From IMG/VR virus record IMGVR_UViG_3300032523_001141, positions 55,991-119,990 of that record: a stretch of DNA of 64,000 nt; one strand, written 5' to 3'. A program made the position numbers and the translations under genes. Below the pieces are notes generated by a model. It had not been told where the DNA came from and did not search any database. It saw only the letters and a program-made list of their open reading frames with translations. The stretch's first letter is position 1. Each line of letters begins with the position of its first letter. Source of the stretch: a virus. Below, piece after piece: positions 26,476 to 61,135 of the stretch.

Positions 26476-28356
26476 TTATGGTTGCGATTGCCATCCGGCA
26501 GTCGCGCCGGACAGGCCAAACGTCTCTCCACGAGCCAAAGTAGGCACAAAACTGCTACCAGCCGTGTCGCTCACGCCGCCGCGATGAGTAGCATTTAATA
26601 AGCTTTTTTGCTGATACGAGCCCATCATGCGCGTCATCCAGTCCGGGTCTGTAGCAACGCTTGCCATACCCCGCACCATCTCTGGCTCAAAAGGTGGCGG
26701 CTCTTTGTGGGCTTCAATGTCTTTGATGCCGTATTTGTCAAAGTTGTCTAAAACAGATTTGCCAATTTTAGTGCCAATTGAGTAATGCAGCACCGGCTTT
26801 TCTAAATAATGTCCAGTTAGGCTTTTTGGGTTACCGTGTACGCTCCCGGTTCTCGGCTGCCATGACCGCTCCAGCATAGAATACGGCACAATATCGTCTG
26901 GCACATAATCGCCGTATTCGTCGGTCAACCGGACATGATTAATGAGTCCGCGAGATAACAATTCAATGTTACGCCGATGTCCAGTGATTCCGCTATTACC
27001 TAGTACTTGCCTCATAGCCTGTACGAAATAACGGCGGCCCTCTCCGACTCCTTTGTATTTGACTATTTCGGCCGGGCTGGGCATACCCTCTGACAACACG
27101 TCACCGGCTTCAAGTACATCGCCTTTTTTCACCTTAAGCGCCACGTCTGTCGGCACGTAATGTTCTTTTCCGGCAACAATCACGTAATGGCCGCCTTGTG
27201 GCGCCAGCCGAATATCTTGCACTGCACCGTCTAATTGAGAGTGGGTGGCGCCACTGGGGTATTTTTCCGGCACCTGCACTAAAGCATTAAGCGCTTTAAA
27301 TCCAGAAATAGCGCCAGCTCCGCCTACGCCGCCAGAGTGCTTAGAAGAAATCTGGCTTTGTGTAACTGGCTCAGCTAATGCTTGGGCGGCGGCAATTCCA
27401 ACATAATCACCAATCGGCGGTAACCGGTTCTTTTCGCGGTATCCGACATCCTTAGAGTACACACCGCCGTCGGCTGGCCCGCCTACTGCGGGGCTACGCA
27501 CTAGTATGTCTTTAATGTCAAGTTGCTTTAGGTCTTTTAATATTTTTGGCGTAAGCACCGTGTTCCGTTTGTACGGCCCGGAGGCTCTGGCCAGTAGCGC
27601 ACCTTCGTTGTCTACATCGTCAACGTCCGACGGAAAGCCGCGATTATCGGCGCCGGCCAGTAACTCAGGCTGATCCTCATCATCAGACGTGACGAGCAAC
27701 CTGTGATTCATTTGCGTTAACTGTTTGGCAAAAAATCCAGCGTCAGACGTCGCAGTTTTTAAGTCCATCAAACCTTTGCGCGTGCCGAACGCCCCAGCAA
27801 AATACTCCACCGGACGCAAGCCCTGACTGTAGCCGTGCATCACCGGAATTGGAATTGGTTGGTTGCGATGATCTACGTACTGCATGTCGGCGCCAAGAAT
27901 GCTATTAAGCTGAAATTTATTTCCCTTAACGCCAGACGACACTTGATGAAAGAGCGGGTTATCTTGCTCTTCAGCGTCTTTGTAAACAATGTCGATAAGT
28001 TCTTTTTGAGCCTGCGACGATAACTCAAGTATTTTAAGGTTCCGAGATTTGTCGTCGAGGCTAGCGTCGCTCAGCACGCCGCGCAGCTTTTGTTTAATTT
28101 CTTGTTGCTTTTTTTGCGCAACAATCGACGTGGTGATGGCGTCTAAACCGACGGACATACCGTTTGTCGTGTACGCAGTTTCAGCGCCGATATCTTGCAT
28201 CTGCTTCATGACCTCGCGGTACTTGTCTGGGTACCGCGTGGCCAGATCAGTAGCGAGTCCAGTCACGTTTTTCTTCGTCAGGACGCGATTGTAGTCTCGC
28301 ATGTCCGCGGGAAGCGCGCTATTTATCAGAAGTTGTCCAAGCGTTGTTTTTAACAT
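26476..28356 (-). CDS. DNA-dependent RNA polymerase beta-prime, C-terminal half
   Basis: 626 residues that match bacterial beta-prime from about its midpoint to its end. Residues 3-72 (TTLGQLLINSALP, GMSVGLDAI) match the segment after the active-site barrel. Residues 140-160 (SSGVKGNKFQL, NSILGADM) match the bridge-helix region. YFAGAFGTRKGL, then MDLKTATSDAGF (to about 208), match the trigger loop. Later EPVTQSQISSKHSGG matches the EPGTQLTMRTFHTGG element. The C-terminus RNIELLSRGLINHVRLTD matches the final beta-prime domain. It must assemble with the separate 1482-residue beta/beta-prime-N chain to form a catalytic centre. The start directly follows the stop of an 80-residue gene, with a weak ribosome binding site. 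Confidence 0.9.
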   Translation of the reverse strand: MLKTTLGQLLINSALPADMRDYNRVLTKKNVTGLATDLATRYPDKYREVMKQMQDIGAETAYTTNGMSVGLDAITTSIVAQKKQQEIKQKLRGVLSDASLDDKSRNLKILELSSQAQKELIDIVYKDAEEQDNPLFHQVSSGVKGNKFQLNSILGADMQYVDHRNQPIPIPVMHGYSQGLRPVEYFAGAFGTRKGLMDLKTATSDAGFFAKQLTQMNHRLLVTSDDEDQPELLAGADNRGFPSDVDDVDNEGALLARASGPYKRNTVLTPKILKDLKQLDIKDILVRSPAVGGPADGGVYSKDVGYREKNRLPPIGDYVGIAAAQALAEPVTQSQISSKHSGGVGGAGAISGFKALNALVQVPEKYPSGATHSQLDGAVQDIRLAPQGGHYVIVAGKEHYVPTDVALKVKKGDVLEAGDVLSEGMPSPAEIVKYKGVGEGRRYFVQAMRQVLGNSGITGHRRNIELLSRGLINHVRLTDEYGDYVPDDIVPYSMLERSWQPRTGSVHGNPKSLTGHYLEKPVLHYSIGTKIGKSVLDNFDKYGIKDIEAHKEPPPFEPEMVRGMASVATDPDWMTRMMGSYQQKSLLNATHRGGVSDTAGSSFVPTLARGETFGLSGATAGWQSQP

Positions 28357-29323: not shown

Positions 29324-32300
29324 CTAATCATTCTCCACAATATGTACCGGCGTGTCGACCTCAATATCACCACGCCGATAAGCGGCAATGGCATCTTTGG
29401 CGGATTTAAAGACTCGCGCGGGCGACTTCTTGTTAATCCGGTTGGAAGCAACATACAGGCCAGATTGTAATTCAGCTACTGGGGTGTAATGACCCTTAAA
29501 CGTTGACGCCGCAAATAAATTACGACTTGGCAGCATTTTTTCAGCGGCTTCTCGGCCGGCTGCGTCAGTGCTAGGCACATGGAATTGCATGGCGTCGCCA
29601 TCGAAGTCAGCGCCGAAACCATTGGTTACAAGCGGGCTCACTTCCATTGTTTTGTTTTTAGTAAGACGCGGATAAAACGCCATTATGCCGTAACGGTGCA
29701 GTACCGGCGCGCGATTAATAATAATTGGCCGAGAATTCATTTGCTGGTTTAATTCACCGCGGGCCATATTGTTTTTGTCGTCAAACGACTTAATTGCTTC
29801 CATGCGCGGTAACCCCCGACGCACCAGCCCGCGCACAATAAACGGCTTATAAATTTCCCACGCTTTTTCTTCGGGGAGGGCAACCTGATCCATATCCAAA
29901 TCAGGATTAGGCGTAATTACAGCTCGACCAACAAGATCCACAGTTGAACTAAGAAGTTTGCGCTGCACAGTGCCGTACTTTGGCGAGCTTCCAAAAATCT
30001 GCGATAAAAAGCCGCGCACTCGTCGCTCGACGTTCTTGGCCTGCACAGGGTCGCCCATGCCCGTGACGCCCTTCATTGCGTCGTATAGTCCCAGGCGTTC
30101 GTTGCCGACTTCAGTAAATACGCCAGCAGAATCTTTTAATACAGAGTTTGCGTCGAGCAGTTCTTTGTACAGATAATTTGCGTCGGCAACGAGCGGTAGT
30201 TTTTTCTGCCCCATCGTCGAGACGGGCCGGAACGCTGGCGGTATTACCGGCATCTTGGTCAGCATCCACTCCTCGGGATGTGTGCCAGTCTTTTCTGAAG
30301 TTTTTAAAAACGCTAGTTTTCGAACGGCGGCATCCCGCGCGACCTTGCGGCCGGACTGAATATCTTGACGCGCCTGCTCTATAGCTTTAGGCACATTAAT
30401 ACGCTTTAGCGCGTTCTTAATAGCCATTGGGCCGGTTTCGTCATTAAGCTTCTCTTGTCCGGCTAAGATATCTCTGAACTTTTTCTCGGTAAGCCCAAGA
30501 GTGCGCCTAATCGGTTCTTCCATAACCGGATTTGGCATAGGCTCGTGCAGAGTGATCTTAGCCCAACGATTACCGTTATGGCCGCCAGTAAGCCCTTCGT
30601 CAAAAAGCCCGCCGGTCTTGGGGCGCAGGCCAGATTTCCAATCAACTGTATCGGCGTTCTGTATTTCGCGGTCGCCCGTAAGCTTGTCAATTTCTTTGTC
30701 AGTCAACGCCATGATGTGCGTCTTTGTGCCTTCGCGGACGGTGGTAATACCTGCACCCCGAAGCTGCTCAACAAATTTTGTGTAAACTTGCGGAATCTTT
30801 GGAAGCGGCGGCGTATAGCCCGCCATTACCTGCGACCAATATTCTGGATTAGCTTGCCCGCGCACCATTTTGGCGTCGCGAATAACCTGCCCAGCGCCGT
30901 GCGAAAGCAAAGCACCCAGATCGAGCATGCCGATGCGCTTAGCGCCTTCAGGCCCGCCCTTGGCTGGCGTGCCTTCAGCCGTGTATCCGCCAGTAGACCG
31001 GCCCTGCGCTTTGCTTTCGCTCGTGTGGTGCAATTTCATGAAGAAACGATTACCAGTAAGCACGCCTTTAATTTTGCGCCCAGTCTCGGGGTCAGTAACG
31101 TCCTCGAGATCCGTAAGTTGATGTTTTCGTAATTCTGCTTTTGCAAAAGCAATAAGATCAGTCTGGTCGTCAAAGTCTTTAATCTTGAACGGCTGCCCAG
31201 TTTTTTCAGCTACTTTACCGAGCGCTGCTTCTACGATCTGAGACGGATTAATTCGGCTGGCTAAACCGAGCGGGCTGACAAGCACCTCTATTGGCCGGCC
31301 TTGCGCATCCTGCGGCATTTGATCGTCAGCAATAATGCCAGCCACGACGCCCTTGTCGCCGAAGCGCCCGGTGAGTTTGTCGCCTACTTCCATCTGCGCT
31401 TTGCTTTTAACAATTGCGCTGTACCCCTTTTTTGTTTTAGCGATGTCAGTGACGACGCCCGGGGAGTGGTGATCCCAAGTAACAGAGTCATTAGTGAAGT
31501 TAGCCGACTTGCCGCGAAACACCTGCCCGTATGTGGTTTCCCGCGCTTTGCTCACGAGAATAAGCGGGTCGCCGTACGTGACAACAGCGCCTTTTTTGAT
31601 TACGCCATTATCGTCAAAGTTATCTAAAGTTTTTTTGTCATACTCACTTGGGAACAAGCTAACAAATTTCTTCTTGTCTATGTGCGTGTTGTCGTCCGCG
31701 TCGGCTTCGTGCTGATACATGTGCTCAGATGTCAGGCGCTTTGCTGCAGACTCAGATATCACCACTGAGTCGTCGTACACAAGCCCGCGGAACGGCAAGT
31801 AACCTACGCGCATATTTAAACCAAGCGCCGCAGTGCCGTTCTTGTCTGTAAAATTTGACTGCGCAATAAGCTGGCCGGGTTTAACTGTATCGCCGGGTTT
31901 TACAGCTGCTGTTTGTGTCCAGAAAGTTTTTCGATTAAACGGCGCGTCATTGTAAAGCTCAACTGTTTTTTGCTCACCGTCTTTGTTGCGTAAAACAATC
32001 TCGTCTGGCGTAACAGATACAACCTGCGAAAGTTCGTCGGCGTATGCGGCACCCATGCTCTTGCCCATATCGTCTTCGTACGAGCGCGATGGATCGTCGG
32101 CGATAGCTGATTGAATAAACGGCGATTCAGCGTTGACAAGGGGCAGCGCCTGCGTAAACATGCGCGAACCCATGATAACGCGGTGACCTTTCATCATGGA
32201 TTTGAGCGGCACCATATTAGACAACATCGAGAAAGACGCATCCATATTTGGAGCCATGTACTGCGCTTGATCGCGCGGAATGTATTTCATTTTGCCGTTA

Positions 32301-33772
32301 ACAATTGCGGCCACGGTTGGGAGGTCGCTTTTATCCTCGCCCGGGAACACAAGCGGCATATCAGCAATGTCCTGCGGCGACTTGTACTCAAGCTCGCCTG
32401 TCTTCAGATTCTTCACTTTCATGTATATTTTGCCATCAGAGCCTTTTACAGCACCGCGGGCGAACCGCATGTCTACACCTACTTTTCCAGACTCCGGCGT
32501 GCGGAGATAATCTACAAACCCGAAGTGACTCGGCTGCACGCTGCGCGATTCTTGCGGCACGGCGTCAAGCGAGCTAATGCCACCTTCGCCTAATCTGGTA
32601 ACCCGCGTTTGATGGTCGTAAATTTCCGCCGGATTAATTTCTTCGAGACTAGACCCGAGACCGCTACCAATAAGCGCAGCCACAATCGCTTTATTAAACG
32701 CACCAGTCGGTACATGATCGAGTGTTTTCTTCGCCGTGGCTTTCCATAGCAGTTGCCGCAGCATGGCCCTATCTTTTGAGAAGCGTTCAGCAATTAAATC
32801 TTCAGGGCCAAGGACTTGTTGAAAAGCCATGCTGTCGCGGTCGTCTGATTCGGTCTCTTTCCGGTTTACGGCAATCAGCTTCTTCGTGATCTTGAGGATG
32901 GCGTCAGGCGTTAAATTTTTGATAGGCTCGCCAAGCGTGCGCTTTGTCACCTCGGGATCCATCTCCATTTTTAAAAACTCGTCGGCGATGGCTTTTTGTT
33001 TTCCTGGGGCGTCAATGCCGGGTATGGCTTTGTAGACAAGCCGGCTATACAGCTTGTCGAGCGTGCCGGCGTCGCCCTTTTCCATATTCACAGCGGTGAG
33101 CTCGTTGCCCCACGCCTTGCGAATATCTTGCTCTGAAGTGCCTAGCGCTTTAAGCAGCGGCATAAGCGGAATCTGCGCTTGGCCAATATTGATCTTGAAT
33201 ACGCCCGTTTTAGGGTCAAGATAATATCGGTGCATTCGGCCTTTTCCGGGAAGCACATTTACATGCGCTTCAAGTTCGCCGTTGTCTTTTTCGCGGGTGT
33301 ATACGCCCGGGCGAAGTCGCATCTGATGGGCCAGCGTGTACTCCACGCCATTATGCACAAACGTACCAGCGTCGGTCATATACGGCACATTAGCCAACGT
33401 TGACCGCTTTTGCGCAATAACCGCGCCTGTTTTGTTGTCCGTTAGATTCCACGTACCGCGCAATTTTCGCGCGAGGGAGCCGTGAGAGAGCACAGCCTGC
33501 TTGTGATCTTTTTTCGTAAAACGCTCGGGGCCTTCGTAACCTACCTCGCCAAGGCTGAGCGTATACAGATCGTTCTGGACAGGTTTAATACCGCGGGCTT
33601 GAGTCGCCGCAGTATCAAAAATATCTTCTCGAGTAAAAACGGGCTCGAACGGCGCTACGCCAATTGCAGACTGCTGCGATTGCTGAAAGATATTTTGGCG
33701 TAACGCGTTAACGTCGCCAAATTCTCGGGCTTGCGGCCCTAAGATCGAGTTTGACTGTTCGGGAAGTGGCAT
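29324..33772 (-). CDS. DNA-dependent RNA polymerase: beta fused to N-terminal half of beta-prime
   Basis: 1482 residues in one frame. Beta features come first: LGEGGISSLDAVPQESRSVQ (394-413) then PSHFGFVDY match the conserved fork region; GLNMRVGYLPFRGLVYDDSV (651-670) and ISESAAKRL follow; then GDKLTGRFGDKGVV (797-810) with the two active-site lysines. Without a stop, beta-prime N-terminal features follow: VDLVGRAVI, INRAPVLHRYGIMAF and the catalytic GADFDGDAMQFHVP (about 1387-1400), whose three aspartates bind magnesium. The chain ends shortly after, where beta-prime continues in a separate gene. The fused length is well below the sum of bacterial beta plus half of beta-prime, so many lineage inserts are absent. 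No alpha, omega or sigma gene was recognised here. Confidence 0.93.
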   Translation of the reverse strand: MPLPEQSNSILGPQAREFGDVNALRQNIFQQSQQSAIGVAPFEPVFTREDIFDTAATQARGIKPVQNDLYTLSLGEVGYEGPERFTKKDHKQAVLSHGSLARKLRGTWNLTDNKTGAVIAQKRSTLANVPYMTDAGTFVHNGVEYTLAHQMRLRPGVYTREKDNGELEAHVNVLPGKGRMHRYYLDPKTGVFKINIGQAQIPLMPLLKALGTSEQDIRKAWGNELTAVNMEKGDAGTLDKLYSRLVYKAIPGIDAPGKQKAIADEFLKMEMDPEVTKRTLGEPIKNLTPDAILKITKKLIAVNRKETESDDRDSMAFQQVLGPEDLIAERFSKDRAMLRQLLWKATAKKTLDHVPTGAFNKAIVAALIGSGLGSSLEEINPAEIYDHQTRVTRLGEGGISSLDAVPQESRSVQPSHFGFVDYLRTPESGKVGVDMRFARGAVKGSDGKIYMKVKNLKTGELEYKSPQDIADMPLVFPGEDKSDLPTVAAIVNGKMKYIPRDQAQYMAPNMDASFSMLSNMVPLKSMMKGHRVIMGSRMFTQALPLVNAESPFIQSAIADDPSRSYEDDMGKSMGAAYADELSQVVSVTPDEIVLRNKDGEQKTVELYNDAPFNRKTFWTQTAAVKPGDTVKPGQLIAQSNFTDKNGTAALGLNMRVGYLPFRGLVYDDSVVISESAAKRLTSEHMYQHEADADDNTHIDKKKFVSLFPSEYDKKTLDNFDDNGVIKKGAVVTYGDPLILVSKARETTYGQVFRGKSANFTNDSVTWDHHSPGVVTDIAKTKKGYSAIVKSKAQMEVGDKLTGRFGDKGVVAGIIADDQMPQDAQGRPIEVLVSPLGLASRINPSQIVEAALGKVAEKTGQPFKIKDFDDQTDLIAFAKAELRKHQLTDLEDVTDPETGRKIKGVLTGNRFFMKLHHTSESKAQGRSTGGYTAEGTPAKGGPEGAKRIGMLDLGALLSHGAGQVIRDAKMVRGQANPEYWSQVMAGYTPPLPKIPQVYTKFVEQLRGAGITTVREGTKTHIMALTDKEIDKLTGDREIQNADTVDWKSGLRPKTGGLFDEGLTGGHNGNRWAKITLHEPMPNPVMEEPIRRTLGLTEKKFRDILAGQEKLNDETGPMAIKNALKRINVPKAIEQARQDIQSGRKVARDAAVRKLAFLKTSEKTGTHPEEWMLTKMPVIPPAFRPVSTMGQKKLPLVADANYLYKELLDANSVLKDSAGVFTEVGNERLGLYDAMKGVTGMGDPVQAKNVERRVRGFLSQIFGSSPKYGTVQRKLLSSTVDLVGRAVITPNPDLDMDQVALPEEKAWEIYKPFIVRGLVRRGLPRMEAIKSFDDKNNMARGELNQQMNSRPIIINRAPVLHRYGIMAFYPRLTKNKTMEVSPLVTNGFGADFDGDAMQFHVPSTDAAGREAAEKMLPSRNLFAASTFKGHYTPVAELQSGLYVASNRINKKSPARVFKSAKDAIAAYRRGDIEVDTPVHIVEND

Positions 33773-36394: not shown

Positions 36395-37420
36395 TTAAAT
36401 ATTGCCTAACGAGCCATAATGCGGTAGTTTTTTACGCGGCCAACCGTTTACGCCAGAAATCGCCACCATGTATCGGTTTTTGATATCAGACCATTTTGCC
36501 CAAAACGCGCCAATTGGAATATCGAAGGCCGTGCCTAAAATCCTGCGGCCACCTTCATTCCACGCGCCCCAACTATTTTGGACTAATATAAGCGGCTCGC
36601 CGTAAAGTTTAATAGTCTCGGGTCGGTCGTCCGCGGCCAGATAAGCAAGCGCGTGCGCCCAGCTCCCGCTGCGCTTAGACACGCCATTAGCGTCGCGCTG
36701 GTCCGAAAAGCCCTCACTACCGCAAGAACTTACGCAATAACCGTTAGCGAGTAAGTCACGCAAGACTTCGTATGTCTCGACCTCGGTAATTGTTTGTACG
36801 CGGTGGTCTTTGCCTACTGCAAGCCAAGAGGTTGGCGGAGTGCGGGAGCCATAGAGCCCAGCGTTACGCGAACTGTATTGCGTAAAATCAACGTTAATCT
36901 CGTCGTATTTTTTACGCAGCCAGAGGCCACTCTCGTTTAGCGCTACTTGAGCAGCTTCGGCGCAGCTCCAGCCGTCGCCACCGTGCCGGCGCCAGTTATA
37001 AAACGCTTCTGTGCTTAACACGCCGTTTAAACGCGCTGTGTCGCTAACTTCTGGCGGGCCTTCAAGCCGCTCTGATTTTGGATCAGGAACGCCGCAAGTA
37101 ATATCGCAGCACATGGTGCCGAGACACGCGTTTCGCGTCGACCAACTTACACAGTCACCGCGGCCCTGCGCTCCGCCCGGTAGGCAGTCTGGATAAATTT
37201 TTAAGATCTCGAGGAAGGGCGCAGAAAGTTTTCCTTTGCCCGTCTCCTCGAGCCTATATGCGGAGCACGCCATAGCCCCATCCGGAATACCGCCCGCACT
37301 TTTAATTTGCGCGCGCAATGCTTCCGCAGCTTCGGGGTTGCTGTAAGCGCCCACGAAACCTGTCTGATATGCCTTTGCAACGTCAAAGACGCTGTCAAAG
37401 AATTGCTCTTTATCGGCCAT
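36395..37420 (-). CDS. Papain-like (C1-fold) cysteine peptidase
   Basis: 341 residues, GGAG before the ATG at 37420. The three papain motifs are in order: GRGDCVSWS with Cys90, GSWAHALAY with His256, and QNSWGAWNEGG with Asn282 of the NSWG motif. Other Cys residues (CCDITCG) may form disulfides. No signal peptide is obvious, so the enzyme could act from within the virion or after lysis. A target is not deducible; cleavage of cell-wall peptides or of surface proteins is possible. It is grouped with small membrane and exported proteins and a matrixin-like protease, which looks like an envelope module. Confidence 0.8.
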   Translation of the reverse strand: MADKEQFFDSVFDVAKAYQTGFVGAYSNPEAAEALRAQIKSAGGIPDGAMACSAYRLEETGKGKLSAPFLEILKIYPDCLPGGAQGRGDCVSWSTRNACLGTMCCDITCGVPDPKSERLEGPPEVSDTARLNGVLSTEAFYNWRRHGGDGWSCAEAAQVALNESGLWLRKKYDEINVDFTQYSSRNAGLYGSRTPPTSWLAVGKDHRVQTITEVETYEVLRDLLANGYCVSSCGSEGFSDQRDANGVSKRSGSWAHALAYLAADDRPETIKLYGEPLILVQNSWGAWNEGGRRILGTAFDIPIGAFWAKWSDIKNRYMVAISGVNGWPRKKLPHYGSLGNI

Positions 37421-37946: not shown

Positions 37947-38417
37947 TTACTTTTTCTCAGCTGGTGCCGATTTGGTCACCGCAGAATCAGCAATGATATC
38001 GCAAGCTGTTACCAACTTTTTAACCGTGTCTGGGTTTAGCTGCACGACCTCTTCGGTACCCATTTGCGCTTTAATCACGTCATTAATCGCAACGTCAAGC
38101 CCAGGGTACTTATTTACTTGATCTACGGCTAGTTTTAATGTGTTTGCGTGCAGTACCGCAAAACGCTCTGTTGTATTTACTAGTTTGCCGTTATCTCGCG
38201 CTACCACGGTCTTTAAACCAATATAAATGCTTTGTACCCGAGCGCGATCGGCGTCGGTGGCGTTTTGCAGCAGCTTTACGATAGTCGGATCGGTAACGAC
38301 AACGTGGTCCGGCGCAACAACAGGCGGCTTAACAGGAAATTTAATGTCTGCTAGGCCGTTCGGGAATACGAACGACAGCAACAGCAAAAGTCCAAGAAAC
38401 CAAACTACTTTTTTCAT
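37947..38417 (-). CDS. Secreted or membrane-anchored protein, 156 aa
   Basis: An N-terminal signal or anchor (MKKVVWFLGLLLLLSFVFPNG) is followed by a Val/Pro-rich stretch. A helical domain with TDADRARVQSIYIGLKTVV and YPGLDVAINDVIKAQMGTEE comes next, and a short basic end. The ATG at 38417 overlaps the preceding stop as ATGA. No lipobox is visible. An N-terminally anchored periplasmic protein next to single-span proteins is compatible with an inner-membrane spanin, but this is only architecture. Confidence 0.5.
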   Translation of the reverse strand: MKKVVWFLGLLLLLSFVFPNGLADIKFPVKPPVVAPDHVVVTDPTIVKLLQNATDADRARVQSIYIGLKTVVARDNGKLVNTTERFAVLHANTLKLAVDQVNKYPGLDVAINDVIKAQMGTEEVVQLNPDTVKKLVTACDIIADSAVTKSAPAEKK

Positions 38418-38701
38418 ACAACACCCTTAGACGGTTGTTGGTACTCGACAATTACGCGAAGCAGCGTTGTGCACGCAGTTACGCCATCTTCGCAGCCTTC
38501 CGCGGCCAGCCGATCACGCAGCTCTGTGACAGATTTAATATCCGCTACGAGAGAAACAGCAATTGACGGTTTAACCTTCGGGGCTGAATCGTTAAAAAAA
38601 GCGGGAACAGCCAGCTTGACGAGAGGCGCTAGTTGTTTGACGTACGTCAAAACTAGCGTAAACAAAAATAATCCGGCTAAAACGCCTTGAAACAAACTCA
38701 T
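38414..38701 (-). CDS. Small single-span membrane protein, 95 aa
   Basis: N-terminal membrane segment LFQGVLAGLFLFTLVLTYV followed by a helical domain with two cysteines (EGCEDGVTACTTLLR) that could form a disulfide in the periplasm. It overlaps the downstream gene as ATGA. It belongs to a run of four small membrane or exported proteins near proteases and holin candidates. Function not recognised. Confidence 0.5.
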   Translation of the reverse strand: MSLFQGVLAGLFLFTLVLTYVKQLAPLVKLAVPAFFNDSAPKVKPSIAVSLVADIKSVTELRDRLAAEGCEDGVTACTTLLRVIVEYQQPSKGVV

Positions 38702-38736: not shown

Positions 38737-39552
38737 TCAGAACTGCGGCACAAGCCTATATGGTTTTCCATTAATTAAAATTGTGCCGCTAACGTCTACA
38801 ACGCCCTTGTTCTTTTTTTGTGTGTTTTTACTGACTTTACCGTAAAGTTTTACCATCTCGTCGATGTCGCCTTTTTGCGGCTTGGTGACAGTTGGGTCGT
38901 AGTAGGGCGCCATTAAGTTACCACGGCCAAGGTGCTCTAAACCAAGCGCGTGTCCAAGTTCGTGGCAGGTAACGGCTACTGCCATGTCAAAAGTCCACTC
39001 CTCCGCTTCGTCGTACATCTGGTCAAGCTGCATGTTTGCCGTAACACCGCACGGCAGCTCGCTCCACGCGAGCGTGCCGCCGCGGTCGTCTAGGTTCACG
39101 CCGCGGCCTTTCCCAGACCGCGCGTGGATGTTTGCGTGATTAACGTCGTCTACACGCACGGGCTCGATAGCGCACACATTAGCCCACTGCATAATAGCCG
39201 CGTCAAACGCCAGCGTAGCCTGCACATCAGTAATGCCGGGCAGCACTAATTTAGAGTGATACGTAATGTTTTTATGCGGCCATTTACACACGTTATCTTT
39301 GCTCGTGATATTAAAGTCTGGCAAACCACAGCGGTGGCGGGCCATGACGTGCGCCGTACGCGGGCCCACAATGCCGGTCGGCTCAAGGCCGTGAAAATTC
39401 TGATACTCACGAACAACGGCTTCTAATGACTTGCCGCTAATTTTTTTAATTTGCGCCCACGACTGGCTACCGAAGTAACCAAGCTTCTGCAGCCGCTTGA
39501 GTATCTCTGTTGCTGATAAAACGTTTTTTTGTTCTGATTTTGATTTTGCCAT
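38737..39552 (-). CDS. Matrixin-like (M10) zinc metalloprotease with peptidoglycan-binding prodomain
   Basis: 271 residues. Residues about 14-72 form a PG_binding_1-type helical domain (LKRLQKLGYFG, EYQNFHGLEPTGIVGPRTA). It is followed at 74-79 by RCGLPD, which matches the cysteine-switch PRCGxPD motif that keeps matrix metalloproteinases latent. The catalytic domain has HELGHALGLEH (197-207: three zinc-binding His, Glu198) and the Met-turn NLMAPYY with Met214. This is the full prodomain plus catalytic core of a minimal matrixin. It has no signal peptide, so it would be released by lysis, exported by holin action or carried in the virion. The C-terminal 45 residues are a short basic/beta extension. 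Confidence 0.85.
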   Translation of the reverse strand: MAKSKSEQKNVLSATEILKRLQKLGYFGSQSWAQIKKISGKSLEAVVREYQNFHGLEPTGIVGPRTAHVMARHRCGLPDFNITSKDNVCKWPHKNITYHSKLVLPGITDVQATLAFDAAIMQWANVCAIEPVRVDDVNHANIHARSGKGRGVNLDDRGGTLAWSELPCGVTANMQLDQMYDEAEEWTFDMAVAVTCHELGHALGLEHLGRGNLMAPYYDPTVTKPQKGDIDEMVKLYGKVSKNTQKKNKGVVDVSGTILINGKPYRLVPQF

Positions 39553-39576
39553 GATTTGCTTCCTTGCAAGTGTTAT

Positions 39577-39984
39577 TCATGCGGCACCTTCTTGCGCCGC
39601 CAATTGCAAAATTTCTGATAGCTCTTCGTCAGAAGCGTTTTCTGAGGCGTCCAGCAGAGCATCAAATAACACGTTTTTGCCGCAGTCTGGTTTGCCGCAA
39701 GTTTCTTGCCACAGCGCGTCTAGTTTTCTACGCAGCCGAATTGTGCGTAAGCGCGGAAGCGTCCGAGCATTGCGCAACCAGTTAACAATCTTTGCGTCAG
39801 AATTTCGATTGCGGCACGCTATGATAACCTGCACGATAATCGAAATTGCCATTAAGATCAGCATAGGATCGAATCGAGCCAGCCCGTCAGCGCGAAAAGA
39901 AAGCTCACTTAAAAGACTTTCCCTTGCTCGCCGCAAAACCTGACTCGATTCGATCCTAGCGATTAACGGATCGTTAGTAGGCAC
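39577..39984 (-). CDS. Small membrane protein with CxxxxC motif, start uncertain
   Basis: Reading from the GTG at 39984 gives 135 residues overlapping the upstream stop by 11 bases. A TTG at 40008 and an ATG at 39864 (95 residues) are alternatives. A membrane span (MLILMAISIIVQVIIACR) begins at the latter ATG. It is followed by an Arg-rich segment and a helical acidic end with CGKPDCGK. A 15-bp inverted repeat (39864-39878 with 39944-39958) in the transcript ends exactly at the A of that ATG, so folding may control the start. Function unknown; lies in the putative lysis/envelope module. Confidence 0.5.
   Translation of the reverse strand: MPTNDPLIARIESSQVLRRARESLLSELSFRADGLARFDPMLILMAISIIVQVIIACRNRNSDAKIVNWLRNARTLPRLRTIRLRRKLDALWQETCGKPDCGKNVLFDALLDASENASDEELSEILQLAAQEGAA
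39864..39958 (-). repeat. 15-bp perfect inverted repeat inside coding region
   Basis: TAGGATCGAATCGAG at 39864-39878 and its complement CTCGATTCGATCCTA at 39944-39958, separated by 65 bases, lie within the membrane-protein gene. In the transcript they would form a 15-bp stem whose 3' end touches an in-frame ATG. Perfect conservation within coding sequence suggests selection on the RNA or DNA structure. Confidence 0.7.
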
Positions 39985-40357
39985 TGTCCGCACGCATACG
40001 CTCAACAAGCAGCGTTTCCGCGTAGCGGTATTGCGCTTGAATAGCTTCCTTTTTCACAGCCTCGCGGCCGCCTAAGTATTTCCACACAATAAAGCCGTTA
40101 ACGCTAATTGTGCCCGCGGCGGCAATAAGCGCCGTAACAGCCTTTGTGACTTCTTGTGCGTTGTTCGAATCAAGCCAACCAACTACTGTAGCGGCAGTAA
40201 TTAAATTTATGGCCACTGAGCTCACCATCGAAACAAATTCGGGTGTAACCCAATTTTTGTTATCTACTACGTCAGTAGCGGCGTTATTTAATACGCGCAG
40301 CTCGGCACGAAGGGCGTCAACGGGCTGCTTACTAACAGATGTTTTCTTTGTAGTCAT
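39974..40357 (-). CDS. Putative holin-like protein with two membrane spans
   Basis: 127 residues from the ATG at 40357, chosen for its AAGGAG site; earlier frame extension lacks one. After a basic N-terminus, two membrane segments (FVSMVSSVAINLITAATVVGW and VTALIAAAGTISVNGFIVWKYL) are joined by a short polar turn. A charged helical tail (GREAVKKEAIQAQYRYAE) follows. Size, two spans and charged C-terminus are like class II holins. It is adjacent to the matrixin-like protease with a peptidoglycan-binding domain. Holin identity is inferred from topology only. Confidence 0.5.
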   Translation of the reverse strand: MTTKKTSVSKQPVDALRAELRVLNNAATDVVDNKNWVTPEFVSMVSSVAINLITAATVVGWLDSNNAQEVTKAVTALIAAAGTISVNGFIVWKYLGGREAVKKEAIQAQYRYAETLLVERMRADSAY

Positions 40358-40431
40358 GTAAATAAATCTCCTTGTAGCTGATATTCTCGCTAATCGACAT
40401 GCGCAACGCAAGACGCTGTTTAATTATATTG

Positions 40432-41802: not shown

Positions 41803-43731
41803 TTATGACAACGCAGCGAGTACGTTGCCTCCGTGACGGTTAATCATCTGCGTCGCGAAACCGGGCTGTTTAGGAGCCTCACCGCGAGCTAGTGCCATAT
41901 TTTGCTGATGCCGGTAAGCCGGGTCTAGTGTTTTGCGCCAGCTTTCAGTATTTGCCTGCATATGCAGTTGATTGTCGCCTCTATTTTTTACGGTCATTAG
42001 ATGCTTTACGAAATTACGCCACACAGATTCATCTTTGCTGTAAGCGACAGGCGTAGCTTTAAGTTGCGCTAGATACGGCTCAGCTTCTGCTGCTTTTGCG
42101 CGCACCTTTACGTCAGGCGGAATAATAGTCGGGTCGGCGTGGAACTTGAATTTAGTGGGGTCATGCGTGACGCCCATGTGATGCGGCAGCGGGTCGTCCA
42201 CGTACCACTCATTCGGGGCCTTGAGCATTAATTCGCGTAAGATAGCATTCTTTTGATCGTATCTTTTAGCGTCAGAATGCTCTTTGGCGGCACGCAGCTG
42301 CAAAATAATTGCGGGTGTTTTATTTACCGTTTCTTTTTGCTCTTTGTGCGTATAGTAGGCGGGCTCTGTTTGCAGATAATCCTTGGCAATTTCTTTGGCG
42401 ATTTGATCATTGTCGGTATGTTCTCGCTCATCTTCGACTCCCGTAGCTAATTGTTTAGGTGAGAATTTACTGTCGGGGATATTGTCCGCCGTAACGCTCG
42501 GAAGAATATCGGCAGCTGTCTTTTTAGCGGCGTTAGCAATAATATGCTGCAAGGCCGCGAGTCGGCCGGCGGCGACACTTGGCGCCATAAAGTTTTTGTG
42601 GCCTGCCATCATTTCCGCTGCTGCGGACGGGTTGTACATCTTGCGCTGGGCTGCGTCCCACTTATCAAGATTTTTTCGTCGCAACTTATTAAGAATGTCC
42701 ACCGCGACAAAATGAGTGCGAGACCCCGCAAAATTGCGCTGTTTTTCTTGACGATGTTTTTCGCTCCACGCATTGTCTACCGGGGCTACTGGCAATACAC
42801 GCGGATTTGTCGCTTTTATGCCGGTCTCTTCTTCAAGTTCGCGAATCGCCGCTTGCCCGGGATCTTCACCGGGATCTATACCGCCCCCCGGAACAGCAAA
42901 AGATTTGTCTGTATTCCAAATTCCGCCGTAAATGCGGCCTTTAGGGTCGTGCGCGTAAACCTCTACTCGTTCGCGCCACGGTAATTTGTCGGCCGGCGTA
43001 TCCCACGGCGCGCCTTCGTGCGCTGCAGTCTTGCGCGTGCTGCAACAACCAAACTTTTTACAAACACATGTCGCGGGGCAGGTGCACGTTCCAGAACAAC
43101 TGCAGTCGTAAGTTGTTTTATCGTCAGATGCGGCTTTTAGCTCGCCGCGACCAGACGCAGCATCAAATTTGCTTACGGCATTATTACCAAGAACTCGGCG
43201 GCGGCGGCAAGCAACTGTAATGTGAAACGCGTGGTCGCCGTTCGGTAACGGTGATAGGCCGTAACTTTTGCGGAGCGCGGTCAGCGCGGGGCTAACAACT
43301 TGCACAGCCCAGACGCGGCTAATACCGTCTACGTTGCTGACTGGTATTTCCTTTACAGGCCCGAGCCCGTAGTTGAACATTTGCCCGCGTTCATTAATCT
43401 TGTCCGCACCGATAGCCGCTACCTCATCGGCCGTAAGCACCGAGATATGCGCATTTAACGCGTCTTCAGCCACCCCGGGGACGTTCATTAGGCCTGCAAT
43501 CGGGAGCTCAGCGCCGGGCGCGGTTAACGCCGAAAACAGACCGCGCACGAAAGCGTTCGGCACTGACAGCAGCAGCCAGCCGCTTTTAGACAGGTACAGG
43601 CGGCCGGCAAGATGATAGTTTGTAGCGGCAGTTTTGCAATTAAGCGCTACACAGCCGTGCGCGTGTCCGCGCGCGTAGAAAACTTCCTGCAGTTCAGGAG
43701 ATAGCGGCTGTAAAAAAGATATACCATCCAT
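41803..43731 (-). CDS. Fusion: 2H phosphoesterase-like domain, Cys cluster, Nudix hydrolase, C-terminal helical domain
   Basis: 642 residues from the ATG at 43731, with GGAG right after the tRNA-Asn. The N-terminal ~180 residues show two HxSx/HxTx motifs (AHISVLT with His95, FHITVA with His170), plus an SPALTALRKSYGL segment. This is the pattern of 2H phosphoesterases that open 2',3'- or 1'',2''-cyclic phosphates. A dense metal-type cluster follows at about 207-230 (CSCSGTCTC, CVCKKFGCC). A Nudix box lies at about 275-300 (GGGIDPGEDPGQAAIRELEE then ETGI), with the expected G-x5-E-x7-RELEEETG spacing. The remaining 300 residues are helical and unassigned. Domain order suggests stepwise processing of an ADP-ribose- or nucleotide-type substrate. 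Confidence 0.75.
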   Translation of the reverse strand: MDGISFLQPLSPELQEVFYARGHAHGCVALNCKTAATNYHLAGRLYLSKSGWLLLSVPNAFVRGLFSALTAPGAELPIAGLMNVPGVAEDALNAHISVLTADEVAAIGADKINERGQMFNYGLGPVKEIPVSNVDGISRVWAVQVVSPALTALRKSYGLSPLPNGDHAFHITVACRRRRVLGNNAVSKFDAASGRGELKAASDDKTTYDCSCSGTCTCPATCVCKKFGCCSTRKTAAHEGAPWDTPADKLPWRERVEVYAHDPKGRIYGGIWNTDKSFAVPGGGIDPGEDPGQAAIRELEEETGIKATNPRVLPVAPVDNAWSEKHRQEKQRNFAGSRTHFVAVDILNKLRRKNLDKWDAAQRKMYNPSAAAEMMAGHKNFMAPSVAAGRLAALQHIIANAAKKTAADILPSVTADNIPDSKFSPKQLATGVEDEREHTDNDQIAKEIAKDYLQTEPAYYTHKEQKETVNKTPAIILQLRAAKEHSDAKRYDQKNAILRELMLKAPNEWYVDDPLPHHMGVTHDPTKFKFHADPTIIPPDVKVRAKAAEAEPYLAQLKATPVAYSKDESVWRNFVKHLMTVKNRGDNQLHMQANTESWRKTLDPAYRHQQNMALARGEAPKQPGFATQMINRHGGNVLAALS

Positions 43732-43742
43732 ACTCACTCCAG

Positions 43743-44601: not shown

Positions 44602-45606
44602 TTACAAAATTTTTGCGGCAATCAAACAGCCCCTGGCAACTGCGTGAAGCGGATCCGCTGCATGCCTAACTTCTTTAACGGCCAGCGGAAACCCATTTGC
44701 AGCCAATTTTTCGGCAAGTAATTTAACAAAACCCGCAGCTTTTGATGTTCCGCCCGCTACGGCAATAGGTAGCGGAGCTTTGAACTTCGGTAGCAACTTG
44801 TGCCCGGTTAGCGCCGCGGCAAGTTGCTTTGTGGTGTAGTCAATCAGCCGTTCGTAATACGCCGACACAGCAGCCAAAATGTGATTTTCGTTTGGCTCGC
44901 CTACTTGAAACACGCCGTGCTCTTTTTCCGCCTGCACAACGCTATCCGGCTCGTTAACAGCTACGGCCGACATTCGATCAACCCAGTCGCCGGATTTGGT
45001 TGTCGAAAACATTACAGTAGGCTCGCCGCTAAGCATTACGCAGACATTTACCATACCGGCACCAAAAGATAAGCCAATACCGGTGTAATCGTCGTTTTCA
45101 AATTCTGAGTAGCACAGCGCCTCAGCTTCGTTAATAGCCCGCGCAAGATAGCCGGCCCCGGCCAAAATAAGCTTAACGACGTCTTCGTGGTACCCGACGT
45201 CAAAATCCGTGTCTTCTTGATCTACAGGCTGCGCCGGAATACAGAACACGATCTTTTCGTCCGCCTCGTCGGCTTTACCCACGACTTCTTGCAGAATAAA
45301 AGCTAGTATGCGTTTTGCGTCTTTTTCTTTAGGGCTAACAACTCCGCGATACATCGGACGTTTGGCCGAGTCATTGCGCTCAACGGCTTTCTCGATTGCG
45401 TCCTGCCCGAGCAGAATAAAGGTACCGTCCTCGTCTTTTACAAATATTTTGCCGGCGAGCCCCTTTTCAATCATTTTGGTAGCGACTGGCGTGGTTGGCT
45501 TAATTGCGTAAAACGCGTCGCGAAAGTCTTTGTAGTCCACGTTTCCCTCTGCGCCGTCTTTCGCGAGGACAATGAACGATGTACCAACGTCTAAACCTTT
45601 TGCCAT
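44602..45606 (-). CDS. Actin-like ATPase (ParM/MreB/Hsp70-fold)
   Basis: 334 residues. Phosphate-1 loop: GLDVGTSFIVLA (4-15). Phosphate-2: GIGLSFGAGMVNVCVML. Adenosine motif: PIAVAGGTSKAAGF near the C-terminus. A connect segment is seen at LARAINEAEALCY. All are in the order of the actin superfamily, and length fits ParM-type segregation actins. It would form filaments in the host, for example to position phage DNA or virions. A 102-residue membrane-anchored protein is encoded one base upstream and could be an anchor. No centromere-like repeat array was seen next to it. Confidence 0.85.
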   Translation of the reverse strand: MAKGLDVGTSFIVLAKDGAEGNVDYKDFRDAFYAIKPTTPVATKMIEKGLAGKIFVKDEDGTFILLGQDAIEKAVERNDSAKRPMYRGVVSPKEKDAKRILAFILQEVVGKADEADEKIVFCIPAQPVDQEDTDFDVGYHEDVVKLILAGAGYLARAINEAEALCYSEFENDDYTGIGLSFGAGMVNVCVMLSGEPTVMFSTTKSGDWVDRMSAVAVNEPDSVVQAEKEHGVFQVGEPNENHILAAVSAYYERLIDYTTKQLAAALTGHKLLPKFKAPLPIAVAGGTSKAAGFVKLLAEKLAANGFPLAVKEVRHAADPLHAVARGCLIAAKIL

Positions 45607-60301: not shown

Positions 60302-61135
60302 CTATTTTTCTAGTGTGTGAAGGTGGGGGCTCAGCGTTAACCGACTTTGAATGCTGAGCTCATGCAACTCGATTTGCGAGTTAATCCAGTCATAATACAG
60401 GCTCACGCGCGTATGGCCGGATTCTGTATGATACCGGCTGTCTGGTTTTTTTCCGATATCACACATGACAAACGAGTGAATGCCGGCTAGTTTGTTACCG
60501 AGAAAAAGGCCGCCGCCTGAGTCTCCTGAGCAAATTAAATACTCAAGCTCAGTTCGGTTTTGCTGGCTAGGGGTAAGAATAAGCGCAGGGCCGCGGGCTA
60601 GCTCTATTTTATTGCTGCCCGCGCGCCGTTTTTCGTCATCAGCGTTTGGGCCCGTTAAGAATGTGCCGTTTGAGCCATAGCCGGCCAAGCTGCAAATCTG
60701 GTCTTGCTCGTCAAAGTCTTTATAGAGTTCTGGATAAAACGCTAATTTCATATCATCGGCGATATAGCACAGCGCTATGTCGTGCAGGCCCAAAATTTGA
60801 GGCTCTGGCGTATAGTCTGCGTGAATAATCTGCTTTGCAACCGCGACCGTACGGCCGTCGTCAAACATTAGTACCGCTTCGTCGGCTTCATAAAGCACGT
60901 GCGCGGCTGTAATTGCCCAATTGGGCCGTATGAGCACCGCAGACGCAAAAGCCGTCGTGCGGCCATTTTTGCGGGGATAGATAGCCCGCAAACGAGCGAC
61001 GCAATTAAATTTTGCGCCATAAGCAAGATATTTAGTATCTGGAGTGTTGGGGTCGCGGGTGCCTGAGTAACTTGGGGCTGGTAGAAGAAGCGTAATACCC
61101 AAAATTAAAGATAGCAATAGATTGACGCGTCGCAT
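60302..61135 (-). CDS. Secreted trypsin-like (S1) serine protease
   Basis: 277 residues with a strong AAGGAGG before the ATG at 61135. Signal peptide: VNLLLSLILGITLLLPAPSYS. Catalytic triad: His79 in WAITAAHV, Asp119 in LHDIALCYI, Ser206 in CSGDSGGGLF. Other Cys residues could pair in the periplasm. A signal peptide means it is made for export from the infected cell. It could cleave envelope proteins or receptors, or process virion proteins outside. The downstream membrane gene may be linked. Confidence 0.88.
   Translation of the reverse strand: MRRVNLLLSLILGITLLLPAPSYSGTRDPNTPDTKYLAYGAKFNCVARLRAIYPRKNGRTTAFASAVLIRPNWAITAAHVLYEADEAVLMFDDGRTVAVAKQIIHADYTPEPQILGLHDIALCYIADDMKLAFYPELYKDFDEQDQICSLAGYGSNGTFLTGPNADDEKRRAGSNKIELARGPALILTPSQQNRTELEYLICSGDSGGGLFLGNKLAGIHSFVMCDIGKKPDSRYHTESGHTRVSLYYDWINSQIELHELSIQSRLTLSPHLHTLEK

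Follow-up and report, generated by a model that had tools for sequence, protein, structure and literature searches.

Matrix metalloproteinase (MMP) zymogens with a cysteine switch have been described mainly in animals and plants. The stretch of DNA analysed here (64,000 nucleotides, called the window in the following) is part of a 119,990-bp virus record of IMG/VR and carries, on the minus strand at 38737–39552, a gene with an ATG start for a matrixin (M10) zymogen of 271 amino acids. A Shine-Dalgarno-like AAGGAAG was read from the sequence 6 nt 5' of the ATG (39559–39565, minus strand). The explanation favoured by us, to which we give a probability of about 45%, is that this protein is a protease kept latent in the cytoplasm which, once outside it, attacks host-envelope proteins when virions leave or enter the cell.

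A first, sequence-only reading of the DNA had proposed a phage-encoded matrix metalloproteinase with a cysteine switch. The open reading frame, Pfam, phmmer, profile comparisons and invariant motifs agree on this point, and a matrixin zymogen with an MMP-type prodomain and a cysteine switch is thus confirmed as far as the sequence can tell. The prodomain (residues 1–82; 39307–39552, minus strand, as for all further parts of the gene) was assigned from a match to Pfam PG_binding_1 (PF01471) at residues 18–70 (1.2e-11, above the curated cut-off) and from model helices, of which the main ones are predicted by AF2 at residues 14–23, 40–53 and 64–70. It is followed by the cysteine switch RCGLPD (residues 74–79; 39316–39333), in which Cys75 is encoded at 39330–39328, and by the M10 catalytic domain (residues 90–238; 38839–39285), which is supported by the model, by profile and by a Peptidase_M10 match over the same residues (6.7e-17, above the curated cut-off). 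The catalytic domain contains the zinc-binding helix HELGHALGLEH (residues 197–207; 38932–38964), recognised from sequence and conservation, and the Met-turn with the invariant Met214 in GNLMAPYY (38911–38913). A short C-terminal hairpin, GTxxINGxPYxLVPQ (residues 256–271; 38740–38787), is conserved specifically in the phage clade according to alignment and model. In a phmmer search of PDB sequences the protein matched full-length proMMP-7 (4e-17), and the family profile matched karilysin (1e-17) and, more strongly, proMMP-1 (1e-30), the latter over positions 34–247, which take in both the prodomain and the catalytic domain. HExxHxxGxxH with a Met-turn and an N-terminal prodomain with a PRCGxPD-type switch, which define the matrixins of M10A, were all found.

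With human proMMP-7, -1 and -3 (MEROPS M10A) the phage protein shares the prodomain, the RCGxPD switch, HExxHxxGxxH, the Met-turn, an acidic DExExW motif and, in the predicted model, the zymogen fold. It differs from them in having conserved cysteines at positions 89, 127, 168 and 196 and in lacking a signal peptide, the structural-zinc histidines and a hemopexin domain. The absence of a signal peptide, already stated in the sequence-only reading, was borne out by a hydropathy scan: the N-terminus is hydrophilic, without a hydrophobic stretch, and the highest 19-residue hydropathy (1.31) lies inside the catalytic domain. Instead of the structural zinc site of animal MMPs (His/Asp/His/His), the aligned positions carry no His, with LAW for LAH and QLDQ for AHFD. 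Both are differences from animal MMPs that lie outside the definition of the fold, and as the structural zinc site is likewise no part of the catalytic definition, the assignment to the matrixins is kept; stability and activity may differ from those of MMPs. Bacterial matrixins such as karilysin and those encoded on Planctomycetota chromosomes have the M10 catalytic domain in common with the phage protein. The non-prophage Planctomycetota matrixins differ in that most match with the catalytic domain alone and much more weakly (58 bits for the best, compared with 181 for a prophage copy).

IMG/VR and genomes of Planctomycetota supplied the relatives. An alignment of 40 sequences showed R74, C75, P78, D79, H197, E198, H201, H207 and M214 to be invariant, and C75 stayed so in 48 sequences after three from Planctomycetota had been added, in which the flanking Pro-Asp is altered (CGVAD, CGVVE). 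Some relatives carry a Pro before the switch (PRCGLPD), where the window has RCGLPD. This invariance is not an artefact of the search pattern CGLPDFN, since loci found through catalytic-domain patterns alone (e.g. L078, L084, L098, L116–L118 and L120) retain the switch. The dN/dS of the matrixin is ~0.03–0.13 between relatives and the gene is under strong purifying selection. Together with the invariant switch and zinc ligands and the presence of the gene at the 71 related loci of the synteny comparison, this shows that the reading frame did not arise by chance. As an independent check, 65 clade contigs were found via the papain-like gene of the same neighbourhood, and the matrixin is present on 64 of them. 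The sequence of the 65th (L197) stops 26 bases short of the papain-like gene, so that the position of the matrixin falls off the contig end. The matrixin is a core gene, in strict synteny, of an uncultured clade of ~200-kb myophages.

For this clade, the fused RNA polymerase beta/beta', the tail sheath and five more core genes are 25–37% identical to those of Salmonella phage Arash, and polymerase and sheath are also related to those of Vibrio phages D69/D148/D181; these distant relationships mark it as a group of contractile-tailed phages. Eleven clade records span 194–205 kb and look near-complete, as their sizes are similar. Arash, which shares further core genes, and the Vibrio phages are the nearest named phages by fused polymerase and sheath, but they are without a matrixin, and in Arash no gene of the matrixin cassette was found at all. 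Within the window, a 1482-aa open reading frame (29324–33772, minus strand) comprises a fusion of the polymerase beta subunit with the N-terminal portion of beta', the remainder of which is a separate reading frame (26476–28356, minus strand), and the same arrangement is present in Arash.

The search for other phage homologues suggested by the first reading was successful in the IMG/VR clade, in a different phage contig (L213) and in Planctomycetota prophages, whereas none was detected in 50,697 named phage records (E 1e-3). A trace match of the L213 copy in named phages (7e-2) was disregarded. The papain-like protein had no homologues in named phages, and no phage matrixin with a cysteine switch was found in the literature. 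When 84,980 species genomes were scanned with peptide patterns, which set the limits of this search, relatives turned up in three genomes alone, all of Planctomycetota. In two of the three the matrixin lies beside portal and capsid genes, and a terminase was identified in one; terminase and DnaB genes are also present on a further phage-type contig (L122). In Planctomycetota prophages, secreted-looking proteins with CxxCH haem-type motifs follow the matrixin (L123:5782-7599, L124:5895-8260, L122:8207-10554), which is unusual in phages. The main text of a study on the transfer of MMP genes, published in 2025, makes no mention of phages (PMC12587646); with a core phage matrixin and its Planctomycetota prophage relatives, phages are added as carriers to the horizontal history of MMPs.

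The matrixin relatives and the papain-like gene in Planctomycetota prophages make a host from this phylum plausible, and by such gene sharing the host of the clade is probably a member of the Planctomycetota or a bacterium with a similarly protein-rich envelope. In later work than the description of proteinaceous planctomycete walls, peptidoglycan has reportedly been found in Planctomycetes too. That description was of proteinaceous sacculi linked by disulfides (PMC2754498).

Structure prediction, proposed earlier as a check of the switch, gave a favourable if inconclusive answer. A first AF2 model from 40 sequences (pLDDT 74.8) had a domain orientation unlike that of proMMPs (rmsd ~11 Å), whereas in a model from 48 more diverse sequences (mb7893a8309b8; pLDDT 79.9, pTM 0.74) the prodomain is predicted to cover the active site, as it does in a zymogen. 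The best 20 PDB matches of this second model were all latent proMMPs (proMMP-9, -10, -3, -1 and -7), with superpositions of 3.2–5.1 Å rmsd over 223–246 columns and a target-normalised TM of up to 0.82. The switch segment itself is modelled, without a metal, at a pLDDT of ~59, and the geometry of the Cys75 switch is tentatively supported at modest model confidence.

According to the explanation favoured here, the zymogen would behave as a minimal, matrilysin-type animal MMP does: Cys75 in RCGLPD would cap the catalytic zinc and keep the enzyme latent during its synthesis in the cytoplasm. Late in infection the matrixin would leave the cytoplasm, whether released by lysis, passed through the membrane proteins encoded next to it or carried on the virion, and its prodomain would be displaced or cut, either by the matrixin itself or by a partner protease, for which the papain-like neighbour and a trypsin-like protease with a signal peptide are candidates. 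The active enzyme would then cleave proteins of the host envelope and so let virions out or in. Activation at lysis or entry, as the sequence-only reading had it, can reasonably be inferred. Within the large-phage clade the cysteines 89, 127, 168 and 196 are invariant, which suggests disulfides and hence action outside the reducing cytoplasm; equivalents of C89 and C168 are missing in L213, and that of C196 in L124. Cleavage of envelope proteins is a reasonable proposal in view of planctomycete walls described as proteinaceous (PMC2754498) and of a Listeria metzincin of phage origin, which alters the cell wall, promotes phage lysis and sensitises cells to phage lysins (PMC8235301). Likened by description, this Listeria Mtz/Tim pair also links a phage-derived metzincin to wall change and lysis, but it differs in being secreted, in having a TIMP-like partner and in being a residual locus in a bacterial chromosome (PMC8235301).

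The neighbourhood of the gene is a cassette of membrane and secreted proteins to which the matrixin is linked throughout the clade. The next gene downstream encodes a 95-aa protein with one transmembrane (TM) segment (38414–38701, minus strand), conserved with the matrixin by synteny and TM reading, and L213 has a TM protein in the same place. It is followed by a small protein that begins with a hydrophobic, signal-like segment and is likewise conserved with the matrixin (37947–38417, minus strand), and, beyond an Ig-like protein, by a highly conserved putative peptidase of 341 aa (36395–37420, minus strand) with the papain-like motifs GDCVSWS ... H256 ... NSWG. For the latter no convincing Pfam match and, by profile, no PDB match was obtained, so that the name papain-like refers to its motifs alone. 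Immediately upstream of the matrixin lies a conserved one-TM protein (39577–40008, minus strand), and next to this a two-TM protein with a weak likeness to holins (39974–40411, minus strand). Three of 13 homologues of this two-TM protein match Phage_holin_10 (best E 0.0024), the window copy staying below the cut-off with 15 bits against 27, and its identity as a holin is weak but plausible. The sequence-only reading had placed holin candidates next to the matrixin; a cluster of membrane proteins is indeed there, including this weakly holin-like one. In the clade, the gene order is RNA polymerase, five small genes, papain-like, Ig-like, secreted small protein, TM protein, matrixin, TM protein, two-TM holin-like protein and a further membrane protein. 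The cassette recurs in L213, where the gene for a matrixin with PRCGCPD comes before those for a TM protein, a secreted protein, a homologue of the papain-like protein (40%) and a protein of the CxxC/thioredoxin-like kind. When Planctomycetota genomes were searched, the papain-like gene was also found in their prophages. A thioredoxin is encoded by one relative. Elsewhere in the window, a trypsin-like serine protease with a signal peptide and the motif GDSGGG (60302–61135, minus strand) has a counterpart in G396, one of the near-complete relatives, and is a possible activator of the zymogen.

None of Phage_lysozyme, Amidase_2, Peptidase_M15_4 and SLT was found in the near-complete records tested, and no peptidoglycan hydrolase was among the Pfam families listed for the open reading frames of one 203-kb genome. 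In Arash an endolysin and cell wall hydrolases are annotated, for which tblastn gave no counterpart in the 203-kb genome or in the window. A canonical peptidoglycan hydrolase is thus not recognised in the clade, and an unrecognised endolysin may exist. It is tempting, if rather speculative, to propose that this phage lineage passes the host envelope mainly by proteases (the latent MMP, the papain-like and the secreted trypsin-like enzyme) and not by a peptidoglycan hydrolase, in hosts with a disulfide-linked protein wall such as Planctomycetota. If this were true, the matrixin would perhaps stand in for the ordinary lysis enzyme that cuts the cell wall. The clade, in which no canonical endolysin was recognised, lends itself to testing whether phages can cross a bacterial envelope by means of proteases.

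Other roles for the matrixin appear less probable. It might be a virion-associated entry protease, located for example on the baseplate, that breaches a proteinaceous surface layer of the host, which we regard as unlikely. In line with such a role, the L213 matrixin directly follows a baseplate-J-type gene, the matrixin of the clade lies on the same strand as the RNA polymerase genes, a few kb away in a long co-directional block, and a signal peptide is lacking; however, its neighbours are mostly small membrane or secreted proteins and not recognised tail parts. More doubtful is a secreted or released effector that would target competitors, grazers or surface proteins of the host and serve superinfection exclusion or community effects rather than lysis or entry. 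The phage-origin metzincin of Listeria does act in trans on neighbouring cells (PMC8235301), but strict core-gene conservation and fixed synteny are unlike a typical accessory gene, and here the lack of a signal peptide counts against the proposal.

The matrixin may also process proteins of the phage itself, for example by trimming collagen-like (Gly-X-Y) fibres. MMPs are the classical collagen cutters, and collagen-repeat proteins were found in the L213 record and in each of the 11 near-complete genomes of the clade that were tested, whereas Arash, which has no matrixin, showed no collagen-repeat runs. On the other hand, there was no collagen match in the window's own 120-kb record or in the matrixin prophage loci, and collagen-like fibres are common in phages generally. 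Fibre processing is thus attractive but weaker than cleavage of envelope proteins, and we consider it quite improbable. The collagen Gly-X-Y proteins of the near-complete relatives (G396–G406) are large (e.g. L222:5440-10753).

Least probable is a genuine peptidoglycan-binding prodomain that would tether the protease to the cell wall, as the first reading had assumed from a prodomain that does match PF01471 and weakly resembles endolysin families in PHROGs: the prodomain of human proMMP-7 gives the identical Pfam family in the same kind of scan (8.3e-7, above the curated cut-off), so that the match points to an MMP propeptide no less than to a wall-binding module, and the whole protein superposes, as modelled, on proMMPs. 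After this control, peptidoglycan binding was rejected as unsupported.

Two further genes on the minus strand of the window may be mentioned. A Volactin-family actin (PF25216, 4e-63) is encoded at 44602–45606 and conserved in the clade, and a 644-aa protein at 41803–43737 combines a NUDIX domain with a 2H phosphoesterase domain.
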